A stretch of 37,156 nucleotides of DNA from assembly GCA_903917755.1 (NCBI GenBank), contig CAIXBT010000148.1, forward strand, positions 1 through 37,156. Direction: 5' to 3'. The notes beneath the pieces are model-generated. The model was given only the letters and a program-made list of their open reading frames with translations, ran no database searches and was not told the DNA's origin. The DNA comes from an uncultured Bacteroidota bacterium (GTDB lineage: Bacteria > Bacteroidota > Bacteroidia > Chitinophagales > LD1). The position numbers and the translations under genes are program-made. Below are positions 2,528-16,503 of this stretch, in pieces. Position 1 is the first letter of the stretch. Each line of letters begins with the position of its first letter.

Positions 2528-4861
2528 ATGACCAGAAGTTTACTCATTATCATCACGGCCATTTTGCTCAGCGGCACACTGTTTGCCGGCGATCCGTTCA
2601 CCAAACATGAACTGGCAAATGGTCTGACAAAAAGGGCTACCCTCAAACTGGCTGACCGCTACTATGCTGAGTCAATCTTCTACACTGCTGCGGAGGAATA
2701 CAAGCTGTACCTGCAGAAAAAGCCCGATGACCGCTATGCTACCTATTGGTTAGGTATGGCGCTCTATCAGGCCCGTGATTACAAAGGTTCTCAGGCTGCA
2801 TTTGAAGCATATTATGCGTTGAAGCCCGGCAAAAAAGACACAAAAGAGAAATGGGAAAAACAGGAAAGGGAATTTTTTAAACTGGGCCGTTTATATTATG
2901 GCATGGTACTGCACCGCAATGGAAAGTATGATGAAGCACAGGAGCAGTTGAGGAAATTCAAAGTGGAGTATTATACTACAGATCAGGCTCAGCAGACGGC
3001 GTTGGTCAAACTCGCTAATCTGGAAATGAAAGGCTGTGACTCTGCCAAAGCCGTAAGAAAACTCAAGATCAAGATCAAGGCGCTACCCGAAGGTATCAAT
3101 ACAGCCTATACTCAGTCGGCACCCTTTCTGTATGATGACAATACACTCTATTACACCAGTCTCGATGAGAATGCGCTGGTCAACTATACAGACGTAAAAA
3201 ACAAAAAGTACACGAATATTTTTGTGGCGAGCAAACATGGAAAAACATGGAGCAAAGACCATAAAATGCCTTCCACTGTGAATGAGGACAAGTATTTCAC
3301 CGGTAATGGAACTTTCAATCCTGACAGGACCCGTTTCTATTTTACTAAATGCCTCGAGATGGATGACGACAGATCTCTGTGCAACATATTCGTGTCTGAT
3401 GTGAAGAATGGAAAACTGACAGGCGATATCAAGCGTCTGCCGGAAGGCATAAACTTCGAAGGCAAATATACTTCCACTCAGCCCACCGTCAGGAAGCTAG
3501 ACGAGAAGCGCGATATAGTCTATTATGCGACCGACAGAGAAGGTGGCAAAGGTGGCCTCGATATATGGTACACTCAGCGCACAGGCGATGGTGAATATAT
3601 GGCACCGAAACCACTGGCCCATGTCAATACTGTAGGAGATGAGGTGACGCCTTTCTTCGAAGACAGCAGCAAAACACTTTATTTCAGTTCAGACGGTCTG
3701 CCGGGTCTCGGTGGCTTCGACGTATTTGCTACCGTGCTCAATATGGAAGAAAGCTCATGGACCGAACCACGCAATATAGGCAAACCACTCAACACCGGCG
3801 CTGATGAACTCTACTACTCTGTACAGCCCGATCAATCGTATGGCTACTTTGTATCAAACAGAGAAGGCTCGATCCCGCTCGCAGGCATCTCTACTGCTTC
3901 TGACGATATCTTTTATTGGGAAAACCTCCACTTTGCAGTAGATGGCGAGATCACTAAAAAAGGCGACCCTACATTCTCTATGGCTGGTGCCCGTTTCAAT
4001 CTCTACCGCACCACACCTGAAGGCAAGAAAGAACTCATCGCTGTAGATTCCACATCTACCAATGGTAAATACTTCTTCAACCTCAGCCCTGACAAGGACT
4101 ATGAAGTAGAAGCAGTAAAAGACGGCTTCCTTCCTCAGGTAGATAAGATCACCACCAAAGGACTCGATGCAGAAGATACCCTCAATGCCAATATGAAAGT
4201 GGCGAAAGACGGATTCATTGTCTATGGCAAGATCATGGAAAATGATTCGCTCTTTTATCCCGGCATCATGAACGCCAGCATGCTCATATATGAGGTCAAA
4301 GGCGGACGCGAGTATCTCTTCAGAGAATTGACAGCCACAGATTCATTCTATGTCACTACGCTTCCTACCGAAAGAGATTTCAAAGTACTGGCTCGCAAAG
4401 ACGGCTATTTTGCAGGCAATACCCGCATCACTACTAAAAACCTCCCGCAAAATTTTGACTCACTCAGAGCCGATATCAAGCTGAACAAAGTGATAGTCAA
4501 CAAAGACTATCGCCTGTCAAATATCCTCTATGAGTTCGATAAAGCAACCCTTACTAAATCATCTATGCTGGTGCTCGATACCCTGTATGACATCATGAAG
4601 GACAATCCTTCTTTCGTTATCGAGCTTTCATCACACACCGATGGCAAGGGTTCTGATCCGTACAACTTAAAACTCTCTCAGGCACGTGCCCAGAGCTGCG
4701 TTGATTACCTCATCAAAAAAGGTGTCGCCAAAAAACGTATGGTACCTGTAGGATACGGTATGCGCAAACCTGTAGCACCAAACAAAAAACCTGACGGCTC
4801 CGACAACCCAGACGGTCGCGCCACAAACAGACGCACAGAGTTCCGAATCACTAAGATTTAG
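2528..4861 (+). CDS. OmpA family protein with N-terminal TPR, PD40/WD40-like beta-propeller and C-terminal OmpA peptidoglycan-binding domain (PorE/SprE-like architecture)
   Basis: Signal peptide, TPR-like N-terminus, propeller motifs (LYFSSDGLPGLGGFDVFAT), C-terminal ELSSHTDGKGSDPYNLKLSQARAQSCVDYLIKKGV; follows a PorP/SprF gene. Confidence 0.9.
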   Translation: MTRSLLIIITAILLSGTLFAGDPFTKHELANGLTKRATLKLADRYYAESIFYTAAEEYKLYLQKKPDDRYATYWLGMALYQARDYKGSQAAFEAYYALKPGKKDTKEKWEKQEREFFKLGRLYYGMVLHRNGKYDEAQEQLRKFKVEYYTTDQAQQTALVKLANLEMKGCDSAKAVRKLKIKIKALPEGINTAYTQSAPFLYDDNTLYYTSLDENALVNYTDVKNKKYTNIFVASKHGKTWSKDHKMPSTVNEDKYFTGNGTFNPDRTRFYFTKCLEMDDDRSLCNIFVSDVKNGKLTGDIKRLPEGINFEGKYTSTQPTVRKLDEKRDIVYYATDREGGKGGLDIWYTQRTGDGEYMAPKPLAHVNTVGDEVTPFFEDSSKTLYFSSDGLPGLGGFDVFATVLNMEESSWTEPRNIGKPLNTGADELYYSVQPDQSYGYFVSNREGSIPLAGISTASDDIFYWENLHFAVDGEITKKGDPTFSMAGARFNLYRTTPEGKKELIAVDSTSTNGKYFFNLSPDKDYEVEAVKDGFLPQVDKITTKGLDAEDTLNANMKVAKDGFIVYGKIMENDSLFYPGIMNASMLIYEVKGGREYLFRELTATDSFYVTTLPTERDFKVLARKDGYFAGNTRITTKNLPQNFDSLRADIKLNKVIVNKDYRLSNILYEFDKATLTKSSMLVLDTLYDIMKDNPSFVIELSSHTDGKGSDPYNLKLSQARAQSCVDYLIKKGVAKKRMVPVGYGMRKPVAPNKKPDGSDNPDGRATNRRTEFRITKI

Positions 4862-4883
4862 GTGTAGAACGAAAGTTGTATCT

Positions 4884-5330
4884 ATGTTTATTCGAATTAT
4901 TAAGGGTAATAAACCTGTTGGGTCTTCTATTATCAATAAAAAGTCAACTTGGGTTTTGTGTATTCTAATAGGCATTGGAATTTCCATACCCATAACTATT
5001 GGAGTTCTTCGTCAATGCAAAATCTATACAAAGGGAAGTTTAGTTAAAGTACTGGTGGTAAATGTACCAGATAATAGTAGAGGTAATTCTAACGGAAGAA
5101 TGAATTTTGAATTCAATGGTAAACCATATGACATTAGTGTTCGTGGTCCTGTCAGTAAAGTATATCATGTTGGAGACACAATATTACTTAGATATCTTAA
5201 TGAGGATGAAGGACTTTTTATGCTCCCAAATAAAAATCCTATAATCGATGGCTTACTATATTTTATAGCAATGTCAATAGCAATTGCGGGCTGTGTTTAC
5301 TATTTAATAAATACACCTGTTGTAAAATAG
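4884..5330 (+). CDS. Hypothetical protein with two TM segments (DUF3592-like)
   Basis: 148 aa ORF; TM segment, short beta-rich region, second TM segment. Confidence 0.55.
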   Translation: MFIRIIKGNKPVGSSIINKKSTWVLCILIGIGISIPITIGVLRQCKIYTKGSLVKVLVVNVPDNSRGNSNGRMNFEFNGKPYDISVRGPVSKVYHVGDTILLRYLNEDEGLFMLPNKNPIIDGLLYFIAMSIAIAGCVYYLINTPVVK

Positions 5331-12257: not shown

Positions 12258-12851
12258 ATGGCAGGTGATGATACATTCCTTCTTTTGCGAAAGCATATTG
12301 AGCAGTTCGGACCTATGCGCGATCAGGATTGGCAGCTGATAGAGCCTTATCTCTCTGAGCGTACTATTCGCAAGCATGACTATATGATCCGCGAAGGTGA
12401 AACAGGCCGCGAAGTAGGCTACATACTCAAAGGAGAAATGCGCCATTTTTATACTTATGATGGCGAGGAAAAAACCACTTACTTTTATTTCGAAAATTCA
12501 CTGGTCGCGCCTTATTATAGTTGCCTCAGCGGTCAGCCATCGAGACTGAGTATAGAGGCCCTCAGTGATACTCGTCTTATCATTTTCCCCTATGCTGTCC
12601 TGAAGAAATTATTTGCGGAAAATCAGACATGGAATACCTTCGGAAGGGTAATGGCAGAGTATCTCGGTATGGGTCTTGAGGATCGTATGGCGGGTTTGCT
12701 CATGCTGAGTCCCGAAGAGCGTTATCTGGAACTTTTGAAAAGCAATAAGAAGAAGATCCTTGAGCGCATTCCTCAGCATCTTATCGCAAATTATCTTGGC
12801 ATTACACCGGTCAGTCTGAGCCGCATCAGAAACCGCCTTATCAAAAAGTGA
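12258..12851 (+). CDS. Crp/Fnr family transcriptional regulator
   Basis: cNMP-binding-like domain (IREGETGREVGYILKGEMRHFY) and HTH end IPQHLIANYLGITPVSLSRIRNRL. Confidence 0.9.
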   Translation: MAGDDTFLLLRKHIEQFGPMRDQDWQLIEPYLSERTIRKHDYMIREGETGREVGYILKGEMRHFYTYDGEEKTTYFYFENSLVAPYYSCLSGQPSRLSIEALSDTRLIIFPYAVLKKLFAENQTWNTFGRVMAEYLGMGLEDRMAGLLMLSPEERYLELLKSNKKKILERIPQHLIANYLGITPVSLSRIRNRLIKK

Positions 12852-12856
12852 ACACA

Positions 12857-13942
12857 TTAAACTATCATTTGCGGATTGCTGACATGCAGTTGATCCAGTA
12901 TATTCATTAGTGAGGGGCTTTCATCATGGATACAGATCATTTGTCCATATCTGTCTTCAGCTATCTTATTTTCGATTGCTTTTCTTTTTTCTTCTAAAGT
13001 AAATTGCGCTGCGATGATGTTTTGTATCCTTTGTTCGCTATGGCCACGCTCTGCTATGTGAGTTTCACCGCTGTCGAGCAGTATGATATTATTATTGCAA
13101 AGCGAAAACAGATCCATCTCAGCAAACAATGCCGACTCCAGAAGTATGATCCCTCTTTTGCCATAGAGACCTTTTCTGATATGATATAAAACCTGCGGAG
13201 AGAGCAGCTCATTTAGCTTTTTGAGTTTGCTCAGATCATCAAACATCAGCGCTGAGATTTTATCCAAACTATATTCCGAAATATCGATACCCAGCAGCTC
13301 ACAGATTTGCTGTCTGAGCAGGAGAGAAGCACCGATGATCACTTCCTTACCTATCACATCTGTATCGAGATGATAGATGTCGATATCTTCCGCTTCCCTG
13401 ATCCACTCAGCGCACAGGTGCGATTTGCCTGCGCCTGGCAGTCCTGTCACGCCGATTATCATTTGCCCGGATATACGCTGTTCCAGCTTTTGCTTTACAT
13501 TGATAGGCACATATTCAGGTATCATGCCTTGCTCCAGTTGCAGCGCCTTTGCTGCACTTGAACTGATATGAGAGAGCTCTTTGCGGCAAGGCATCAGAAA
13601 GGTTTCCAGTTCTCTGTTTTGAGATTCTCCCAGATGATGCAACATCAGTTCGAAGTTGAAATCTTCAGCATTACGTAGCCCCCTGATGATGACATTAACA
13701 TTCTGATCGTATGCGAAATCAGCCAGTAGTCCGCTAAAGGAAGTCACCCTTACATTCGTGAAACCGGACAGAGACTCATGGGCCATCCTGAGGCGTTCAT
13801 CAGTTGTGAAAAGATAGTTTTTTAGTGGGTTGCTCCCTATAGCAGCTATCACTTCATCAAAAATTTTCGCTGACCGGGAAATGATATCCATGTGCCCGTA
13901 TGTGATCGGGTCGCCAGAGAAGGCATAGATCGCACTTTTCAT
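12857..13942 (-). CDS. Predicted bifunctional phosphopantetheine adenylyltransferase (CoaD) / dephospho-CoA kinase (CoaE) fusion
   Basis: N-terminal half: FSGDPITYGHMDIISRSAKIFDEVIAAIGSNPLK...VIIRGLRNAEDFNFELMLHHL...ISSSAAKAL (CoaD motifs). C-terminal half: MIIGVTGLPGAGKSHL Walker A, YHLDTDVIGKEV, LDKISALMFDDLSKLKKLNELLSPQVL, RIQNIIAAQFTLEEKRKAIENKI (CoaE motifs). One uninterrupted ORF. Confidence 0.88.
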   Translation of the reverse strand: MKSAIYAFSGDPITYGHMDIISRSAKIFDEVIAAIGSNPLKNYLFTTDERLRMAHESLSGFTNVRVTSFSGLLADFAYDQNVNVIIRGLRNAEDFNFELMLHHLGESQNRELETFLMPCRKELSHISSSAAKALQLEQGMIPEYVPINVKQKLEQRISGQMIIGVTGLPGAGKSHLCAEWIREAEDIDIYHLDTDVIGKEVIIGASLLLRQQICELLGIDISEYSLDKISALMFDDLSKLKKLNELLSPQVLYHIRKGLYGKRGIILLESALFAEMDLFSLCNNNIILLDSGETHIAERGHSEQRIQNIIAAQFTLEEKRKAIENKIAEDRYGQMICIHDESPSLMNILDQLHVSNPQMIV

Positions 13943-14568
13943 TTGTATAGATTTAGTTCGTTGGATAAATTGATTCGTGCCTGTGTTTCGTATTGCAGAC
14001 GATATTTTTCCGTTCTGAAAATATGCTGAGCGGACAATGTTTTTTCAATAAATAATTTTCTCCCGGCATAGAATAATTCATCAGGAAAGATCAGGTACTC
14101 TTCGCGAATGTCAGACACATATTTTCTGTATGTCTCCGGATCTGCCCCGAGTATCTTGATGTCTGTGTCCAGAAATATTTTGATGAGATCATCTTCCTCT
14201 GCATCGATGCGGAAGTGATCTGCTGTATGCAGGATAGCCTCCACTACCTGTGGTATGACAGACTCAGGCAGATGAAGCAGCTGCAGTTTTGCTGAAGCCA
14301 GATCGGCGCTGGCTTGTTCATTGTCATGGCGAAGAGTATCATAGATGCTGTCGTGGTACCATGCAGCAAAAAACAATTCGGCAGGGATATTTCCATCGGT
14401 CAGTGTGTGAAGGTCGCTGAGCATATGGCTGATATGATCCAGGTTGTGATATCTGCGATGTGGCTCCTGATACAAGGTGATAAGCTCATCTATCAGTGAT
14501 GTGGATAAGGCTTCATCAGAACTATAAGCTGCGCAGTGGTTCAGCCAATCTGTTTTAAGTGAGTTCAT
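13939..14568 (-). CDS. HD-domain metal-dependent phosphohydrolase-like protein (COG4339-like)
   Basis: RRYHNLDHISHML, AAWYHDSIYD, FLDTDIKILG; 4-nt overlaps with both neighbours. Confidence 0.85.
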   Translation of the reverse strand: MNSLKTDWLNHCAAYSSDEALSTSLIDELITLYQEPHRRYHNLDHISHMLSDLHTLTDGNIPAELFFAAWYHDSIYDTLRHDNEQASADLASAKLQLLHLPESVIPQVVEAILHTADHFRIDAEEDDLIKIFLDTDIKILGADPETYRKYVSDIREEYLIFPDELFYAGRKLFIEKTLSAQHIFRTEKYRLQYETQARINLSNELNLYK

Positions 14569-15839
14569 ATCTGGTTATTTATTTTGCTTAAGGTGAAACT
14601 GAAAATGAGGATAGATAACACTAACGCGACTGTGCAAACTATAGCCAGAGAGTGCCCGATGGCCAGAGGGTCATGATAGTAATGGTCGGTCAGCAAAGCC
14701 ACACATAATGGGCCGAGACTTAGCCCGATGATATTCTGCAAAAAGAGTGTGAAGGCGGATGCAGTGGAGCGGTAAACCGAAGGAACGAGCTCTTGTATAG
14801 CCGCAGCAGTGACTGCTACAGGTATGCTGACGCATAGTGCATAGGCCATCAATACAGGTATGATATATACGCTGTCAGAAAGCCCCAGTGCCATACAGAC
14901 CGGTATGAACAGGATAAGTGAGAATATAATGATAAGCAGTCTGTTTTTCAGTTTTGAGGTGCCGGGTAGTATATCGCTGATCCGGCCTCCTGCCACGACT
15001 CCTATAGGCGACAGTATCAGTATGCCCAGACCGGTATACCGGCCCACCGTGTCCATAGGCATATGATGTACTCTGTGCAGCAGCGATGGTATCCATACTC
15101 CTGTGGCATATACTGCGATGTTGAATATGGCCGATCCAAGACTGATGAGCATAAATGTGCCGCCATCTGATCTCATATAGGCTACGAAATCTCTCACTGA
15201 AGTATGAGCGATAGATGCCGGTCTCTCAGGTTCTTTGACCAGCATGAATATCAGTGCCACTAGCAGACCCGGTAAACCAAGAATGAAGAATATCAGTTGC
15301 CAGGAAAAAATAGAGCCGATCACAGGGAGTGTGTAGATGGTTTGCGCTCCCAATAGTTTCAGCATATAGCCGCCTATGATGTATGCGAGCCCGGCACCGA
15401 GATATATGCCGGATGAATATATACCAATAGCTGTGGCCAATTGTTTCTTAGGAAAAAGATCAGTGAGCAACGGGTATGCTGCAGGTGTCAGTGCTGCCTC
15501 TCCGACCCCTACTCCGATACGGCCTGTCAGTAGCTGTATGAAACTCTTCGCACTGCCACAGATTGCAGTAAAGAAGCTCCATAGTGCAATGCCTGAAGCA
15601 ATGATCCGAACCCTTGAACCGCGATCAGCCATGACACCGAGGGGCAGGCTCATTAAGGCATAAAATACTGCAAACCCTGCGCCGGTCAGTAGCCCTGCCG
15701 ACGTGTCTGTGAGGTGAAGGTCATGTTTCATCGGTTCGATGAGGAGATTGATCACATATCTGTCCATGAATGAAAGCATGTAGGCCAGCATCAGCAGCAG
15801 GAGTATGGCCCATTTGTTTGATATATGATATGCTCTCAT
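14565..15839 (-). CDS. MFS transporter (spinster-like)
   Basis: LLMLAYMLSFMDRYVINLLIEPMKHDLHLTDTSAGLLTGAGFAVFYALMSLPLGVMADRGSRVRII; about 12 TM segments. Confidence 0.93.
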   Translation of the reverse strand: MRAYHISNKWAILLLLMLAYMLSFMDRYVINLLIEPMKHDLHLTDTSAGLLTGAGFAVFYALMSLPLGVMADRGSRVRIIASGIALWSFFTAICGSAKSFIQLLTGRIGVGVGEAALTPAAYPLLTDLFPKKQLATAIGIYSSGIYLGAGLAYIIGGYMLKLLGAQTIYTLPVIGSIFSWQLIFFILGLPGLLVALIFMLVKEPERPASIAHTSVRDFVAYMRSDGGTFMLISLGSAIFNIAVYATGVWIPSLLHRVHHMPMDTVGRYTGLGILILSPIGVVAGGRISDILPGTSKLKNRLLIIIFSLILFIPVCMALGLSDSVYIIPVLMAYALCVSIPVAVTAAAIQELVPSVYRSTASAFTLFLQNIIGLSLGPLCVALLTDHYYHDPLAIGHSLAIVCTVALVLSILIFSFTLSKINNQI

Positions 15840-15918: not shown

Positions 15919-16503
15919 CTATTTTTCTTTCCTGATGCGGCTGAGAGACTCAGGTGTAATGCCCAGATAGGAAGCTATATAATGATGCGGCACCATATTG
16001 ACCAGCTGCGGATATATGGACAGCAGCTCATTGTAGCGCTCTGCAGCTGATCTGTGTTGCAGCGAATAGATACGCTCCAGTGCCAGCATATAGTTGTACT
16101 CTGCCATCTTGCGGCCCAGTCTGTCTATAGCCGGATGGGTCTCATACAGATGTTCCAGATCTGCGTGACTGATCACGATCATGCTGCAATCAGTGATGGC
16201 ATGAATATTTTCCTGAGATGCGATCCGTTTTGTGAAACTAGTAAAAGAAGACACGAACGGATTGCGCTGCCCAAAGTTGAAATAGGATGTATACTCCTTA
16301 TCATTAGCCAGATGATATACACGCATCACACCGCTTATCAGAAAACCTATATGCGAGGACACCTGTCCCTCACGCAGCCAGTACTCACCTTTGGCGATAT
16401 CAAGGCTCGTCATTCGATCATACAGGGCCTCAATATCAGTATCTCCGAGCGGGGAGAAATGATTGAGTTGTTTGATGAGAATATCGGGTAAACTGTGATC
16501 CAT
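15919..16503 (-). CDS. Crp/Fnr family transcriptional regulator
   Basis: LREGQVSSHIGFLISGVMRVYHL cNMP-like domain; VPHHYIASYLGITPESLSRIRKEK HTH end. Confidence 0.9.
   Translation of the reverse strand: MDHSLPDILIKQLNHFSPLGDTDIEALYDRMTSLDIAKGEYWLREGQVSSHIGFLISGVMRVYHLANDKEYTSYFNFGQRNPFVSSFTSFTKRIASQENIHAITDCSMIVISHADLEHLYETHPAIDRLGRKMAEYNYMLALERIYSLQHRSAAERYNELLSIYPQLVNMVPHHYIASYLGITPESLSRIRKEK

Follow-up and report, generated by a model that had tools for sequence, protein, structure and literature searches.

The window, which is the whole stretch of 37,156 nucleotides analysed here from an uncultured Bacteroidota bacterium, carries on its minus strand a single uninterrupted gene in which a phosphopantetheine adenylyltransferase (PPAT, CoaD) is joined to a homologue of dephospho-CoA kinase (DPCK, CoaE). 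We consider it probable that this protein is one of a family of bifunctional CoA synthases that has spread horizontally, and that these stand in a module with an HD-type phosphodiesterase-like protein. The family is rare and is undescribed in the searchable literature.

The CoaD-CoaE reading frame

An initial annotation had reported a CoaD-CoaE fusion in one open reading frame. Our analysis confirms it, with the following features.

12857 to 13942, minus strand: whole CoaD-CoaE open reading frame (ATG at 13942, 361 amino acids, no internal stop)
13475 to 13933, minus strand: CoaD (phosphopantetheine adenylyltransferase) domain, residues 4-156, from TIGR01510 and from the AlphaFold model compared with structure 6b7a
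12971 to 13462, minus strand: CoaE (dephospho-CoA kinase) domain, residues 161-324, from PF01121, the match to structure 2grj and alignments

The N-terminal half, whose PPAT domain starts at residue 3-4, scores 143.7 bits with the equivalog model TIGR01510 over residues 4-156 (cut-off 103.3), and 145.6 bits in a profile search of the host genome. It has the CoaD motifs G16-H17, R87-G88-L89-R90 and S127-S128-S129, which are conserved among its relatives, and all of the CoaD and CoaE motifs named in the initial annotation were found in the protein. The AlphaFold model of the fusion has a mean pLDDT of 88.8; its N-terminal half resembles E. coli PPAT (6b7a; TM 0.94 by target, rmsd 1.5), the structures closest to that half are bacterial PPATs with E. 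coli first, and the best 50 Foldseek matches of the fusion model are all PPATs. By sequence, the nearest solved structures are PPATs for the first half and a Thermotoga dephospho-CoA kinase for the second (2grj; E 3.4e-11). The C-terminal half passes PF01121 with 46.4 bits (cut-off 27), and the kinase half is on these sequence matches identified as CoaE. With TIGR00152 it reaches 52.0 bits against an equivalog cut-off of 65.55, which the relative in genome G008 passes with 72.4 bits; we therefore call the C-terminal half of the window protein a CoaE homologue and not a confident functional CoaE.

The host assembly is fragmented (430 contigs), which would favour a reading of the frame as an assembly or sequencing artefact, or as a recent fusion private to this genome. 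That reading is refuted with near certainty, however, since the identical junction is present in about 20 full-length relatives (29-49% identity) on cellular contigs of unrelated sources and, again at full length, on 11 viral contigs.

The operon and its HD-type partner

The picture given by the initial annotation was incomplete, in that a conserved HD-type partner gene had been overlooked. The operon contains three further features.

13939 to 14568, minus strand: HD-type metal-dependent phosphohydrolase/phosphodiesterase partner of 209 amino acids, from its conservation as neighbour or fusion partner, its predicted fold and PHROG 19425
14565 to 15839, minus strand: MFS transporter (PF07690, 155.7 bits), in the same place in genomes G008, G023 and G028
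15919 to 16503, minus strand: Crp-family regulator heading the operon (PF00027, 31.2 bits), conserved upstream in relatives

The fusion gene and the HD gene upstream of it share 4 bases at the start codon of the fusion, as is usual within operons, and the HD gene overlaps the MFS transporter gene by the same amount. The order Crp, MFS, HD, CoaD is repeated in G008 and G028, which belong to the same bacterial family, and also in G023, there with a shorter Crp ORF; the operon of G026 has no MFS gene, and a Crp regulator lies upstream both there and at locus L068. Among these related operons G008 alone has the fused CoaE, and CoaD stands alone in G023, G026 and G028; an ordinary CoaD is also present in G008, G026 and G028. 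We infer a role in the module for the MFS transporter. Two Crp-family regulators, one on each strand, flank the window operon (12258-12851 and 15919-16503).

Pfam gave no match to the 209-residue HD partner at E 0.01, and PHROG 19425, a phosphohydrolase, matches it with 105 bits. Its predicted model (mean pLDDT 94.9) aligns with class I cyclic-nucleotide phosphodiesterases with a Z score of 16.3 over 208 of the 209 residues, at 12-18% identity. In an alignment of 14 sequences H41, H45, H72, D134 and D136 are invariant and D73 is nearly so; these H...HD...D residues and the all-helical HD/PDE fold of the model place the protein in the HD superfamily, and we take its family to be COG4339. It is like the class I phosphodiesterases and other HD enzymes in predicted fold and in the conserved His, His-Asp and Asp, but differs from them in having no Pfam match and in lying beside CoaD-CoaE or being fused to it.

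All five loci of the window's family have the HD gene. A profile search finds it in 10 of 20 outside loci, as a neighbour on either side or as a fused domain, and it is adjacent in 5 of the 11 viral contigs; in about half of the outside loci there is no HD gene within the flank read. It lies directly upstream of the fusion or CoaD in the window's family, L068 and L085, and directly downstream in L070, L071, L077, L081, L082 and, in part, L075. In two loci it is fused to the C-terminus of CoaD-CoaE.

L074, 1385 to 3130: three-domain CoaD-CoaE-HD protein of 581 amino acids, in a Spirochaetales bin
L079, 1845 to 3647: three-domain CoaD-CoaE-HD protein of 600 amino acids, in a Clostridiales bin

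That the linkage recurs with the genes in different orders suggests that the HD protein and CoaD-CoaE are functionally tied. The linkage is not a clade trait, as the tree needs 10 changes to account for it, no fewer than with shuffled labels; thus the link has been repeatedly gained or lost. Nor is the HD protein specific to the module, related HD genes being found in 255 of the 396 genomes of the order; the five best HD scores in the order are exactly those of the five operons. In two genomes of the order, stand-alone HD relatives adjoin a gene for a Nudix regulator of NrtR type (L198:1498-2815 and L199:1498-2815).

Occurrence of the family and state of the fusion in its host

Within the host's order the fusion was found only in the window's genome and G008 (396 genomes), and an unfused operon CoaD in three genomes; a search of 395 genomes from the phylum recovered, at E under 1e-40, no fusion but that of the window. 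Scanning 84,980 species genomes gave about 20 full-length fusions, whose carriers are Bacteroidota, Woesearchaeota, Nanoarchaeota, Aminicenantes, Spirochaetes, Phycisphaerae, Dojkabacteria, Clostridiales, Lentisphaeria, a Patescibacterium and a plasmid of Pseudomonas serbica, and a plasmid search gave one fusion, in a plasmid of Pseudomonas silesiensis. The fusion is therefore rare in the host's order and scattered over Bacteria, DPANN archaea and viral contigs. One Woesearchaeote bin (G410) has two different CoaD-CoaE fusions, on contigs C34 and C80, one of which shares its contig with CoaB.

We built a tree of CoaD domains from 22 fused CoaDs, the three unfused operon CoaDs and ordinary CoaDs. 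A branch (SH-aLRT 93) separates the 22 fused domains from ordinary CoaD; nearest to the fused group are the three unfused operon CoaDs, with the ordinary ones farthest away, and different taxa are intermingled inside the fused group. A single group with mixed taxa fits one origin and later transfer, and on this evidence the fusion looks like one old, mobile family rather than a local event. The homologues in other phyla rule out a local recent fusion.

Full-length fusions are present in 11 IMG/VR contigs of 72-330 kb, and none was found in the INPHARED phage collection. The viral members mostly group together in the tree (2 label changes), and the family is apparently also borne by large phages; since its protein is 83% identical to the Pseudomonas plasmid protein, contig L160 may be a plasmid and not a phage. 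Nicotinamide phosphoribosyltransferase and NMN adenylyltransferase-Nudix genes lie near CoaD-CoaE in L157 (12585-16200) and L159 (13111-17121); such genes are known in jumbo phages as NAD+ systems (PMC7824862). The same two genes are at L183:3209-8122 near HD-CoaD, a viral fusion without CoaE (L183:9332-10459). Contig L186 (9986-10546), and also L187 and L188, encodes a 186-residue chimeric protein in which a truncated beginning of CoaD is joined to the C-terminal portion of HD. PADLOC gave no useful match to a defence system.

CoaB, CoaE, CoaD and the carrier protein were searched for in the 20 outside carrier genomes, which are mostly draft metagenome bins, so that the absences that follow may be gaps. 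No CoaD other than fused copies was found in 16 of the 20, and neither another CoaD nor another CoaE above cut-off in 10. Six of these ten (G399, G401, G402, G405, G412 and G413; two Nanoarchaeota, two Spirochaetes and two Lentisphaeria) keep CoaB, which supports a CoA synthase function for the fusion. CoaB was undetected in seven of the 20, all genomes of 2 Mb or less; synthesis of CoA from imported or recycled 4'-phosphopantetheine would fit these carriers. In the Woesearchaeote locus L083 the fusion belongs to a run of genes that also includes CoaBC, two genes upstream; that CoaBC is fused to a class II aldolase domain (L083:5397-7250). Genes for Ser/Thr protein kinases lie close to the fusion in different phyla (L072:5362-7926, L084:3-563, judged from sequence only, L085:6408-7385 and L088:2018-2809), and in L085 an HD gene lies between the kinase gene and the fusion.

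The host assembly has one strong separate CoaE (180 bits), and no CoaD above the TIGR01510 cut-off was found in it besides the fusion. In the host's genus coaD follows rsmD; in this assembly rsmD breaks off at the edge of a contig (C171:1), and coaD's other usual neighbour is picked up from base 250 of C240. Since both neighbours sit at contig edges, an assembly gap between C171 and C240 is the likelier explanation, the ordinary coaD probably lies in that gap, and we set aside the idea that the fusion is the host's sole PPAT. With a separate CoaE in the genome and the ordinary coaD probably unassembled, the fusion is best regarded as accessory in this host.

The CoaE half of the window protein keeps the P-loop (GLPGAGKS) and the catalytic Asp195, which aligns with the second Asp of the canonical DxD and has a counterpart in all fusions aligned. 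Its lid has a 4-residue deletion, of the two arginines usual there one is difficult to locate, and a conserved DGxIDRK segment is largely lost. The window protein shares 72% identity with its nearest relative (L006) in the CoaD half and 30% in the CoaE half. Over all comparisons its mean residual against the family trend is -8.5 points, the lowest among 21 members and followed by that of L006, 5.6 below the trend. Judged by these comparisons, the CoaE half is unusually eroded in the window's genome; taken with the absence of CoaE from three of the related operons, this suggests that constraint on the fused CoaE is relaxed where a separate one exists. Because the genome has such a separate CoaE, the kinase half is probably weak or decaying there, and we regard its activity in this genome as uncertain. 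Elsewhere in the family the P-loop residues are broken in some members (L071, L072), and PF01121 was not detected in the CoaE half of L088.

It is a serious possibility, though not the reading we favour, that the window protein is mainly a second PPAT, its CoaE half a relict or regulatory kinase that is being lost, and that its dephospho-CoA passes to the separate CoaE. The divergence of the CoaE half and its lid deletion would both be expected from this, as would the strength of the separate CoaE and the operons of G023, G026 and G028, which have the same CoaD without CoaE. Nevertheless, the reading frame is unbroken, the kinase half retains its P-loop and catalytic Asp and continues to score above the PF01121 cut-off, and the unfused CoaDs need not be losses, since they fall between ordinary and fused CoaDs in the tree.

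Proposed function and relation to known fusions

In the bifunctional CoA synthase that we favour, the N-terminal CoaD would adenylate 4'-phosphopantetheine to dephospho-CoA and the C-terminal CoaE would phosphorylate this to CoA. The HD-type phosphodiesterase-like protein would act with the fusion, and may supply 4'-phosphopantetheine, for instance by releasing it from holo-carrier proteins, or clear a related nucleotide. Our inference is thus of a mobile module for CoA synthesis from 4'-phosphopantetheine, the catalytic activity of the fusion and the substrate of the HD protein being presumptive. Carrier-protein recycling is attractive because E. coli AcpH, which cuts 4'-phosphopantetheine from holo-ACP, is a member of the HD superfamily. 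No carrier-protein phosphodiesterase family was found among the related HD proteins. No carrier protein (PF00550) was detected in the HD carriers G398 and G409, which argues against holo-ACP as the only substrate and weakens the idea of an AcpH-like enzyme so restricted. HD presence and ACP presence showed no visible association across the 20 genomes.

The HD protein might instead be a phosphodiesterase of cyclic nucleotides, in which case the operon would regulate CoA synthesis as a cAMP-type unit and not serve as a source of 4'-phosphopantetheine; we think this rather unlikely, but worth keeping in view. Class I cyclic-nucleotide phosphodiesterases are the best fold match, a cNMP-binding regulator is part of the Bacteroidota operons, and in L080 a CHASE2-adenylate/guanylate cyclase gene (3416-5236) ends about 15 bases before the fusion gene. 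A common fold does not reveal the substrate, however, the sequence identity is low, and most carriers have no cyclase or Crp gene nearby. Quite improbable, in our judgement, is that the module no longer makes CoA, its domains and the HD protein acting on some other pantetheine-like or nucleotide substrate. The distinct conserved motifs of the family (SGDPIT in place of SFDP, and NNN in the kinase half) are what this would lead one to expect, as are the conserved HD partner, the NAD salvage genes in viral loci, and the co-occurrence of the fusion with ordinary CoaD and CoaE in Bacteroidota and Pseudomonas. But of the 22 carriers searched, 21 have a fused CoaD that passes the TIGR01510 equivalog, there are genomes with CoaB in which no CoaD or CoaE besides the fusion was found, and CoaBC lies near the fusion in L083, all of which favour CoA synthesis.

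The fusion resembles animal COASY in having PPAT and DPCK in that order in one chain. COASY's PPAT is of another type than bacterial CoaD, and the PPAT here is of the bacterial CoaD type, so that the fusion is presumably independent of COASY. The independent origin proposed in the initial annotation thus stands with respect to the animal enzyme; it does not extend to a private event in this genome, the fusion being one scattered family. Animal COASY also has a long N-terminal extension before its PPAT (PMC6284149), which is missing here, where an HD-type partner is present. The separate CoaD and CoaE of bacteria have the same domains and motifs, but here these are fused, form their own group in the tree and are linked to HD. 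A PPAT-DPCK fusion of the arCOG04076 type has been published from uncultured archaea, so the idea of such a prokaryotic fusion is not new; it too joins the last two CoA enzymes, but its DPCK is not homologous to CoaE (PMC6650551), whereas the fusion here has the bacterial P-loop CoaE, in DPANN archaea as well, some of which have been described as lacking arCOG04076 (PMC6650551). The CoaD-CoaE version, its HD partner and its viral occurrence were not found in the searchable open-licence literature.

More speculatively, and in our estimate improbably, CoaD-CoaE-HD could be a mobile, partly phage-borne cofactor-restoring cassette, in which HD would release 4'-phosphopantetheine or clear the nucleotide half and the fusion would rebuild CoA. 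An equally tentative analogy is that such a cassette would parallel the phage NAD+ reconstitution pathways, whose genes are in some of the same viral loci.

If the bifunctional CoA synthase reading is right, the family would be a further solution to fusing the last two steps of CoA synthesis, distinct from COASY and from the arCOG04076 fusion. Some DPANN archaea and bacteria with small genomes, among them the seven carriers without detected CoaB, could then make CoA from 4'-phosphopantetheine, for which no bacterial uptake route is known in E. coli according to a recent review (PMC12570885). The HD linkage, whether upstream, downstream or fused, gives an uncharacterised enzyme family a testable class of substrates, and, as large viral contigs carry the fusion next to genes for NAD salvage, maintenance of CoA by viruses as well is suggested as a possibility.
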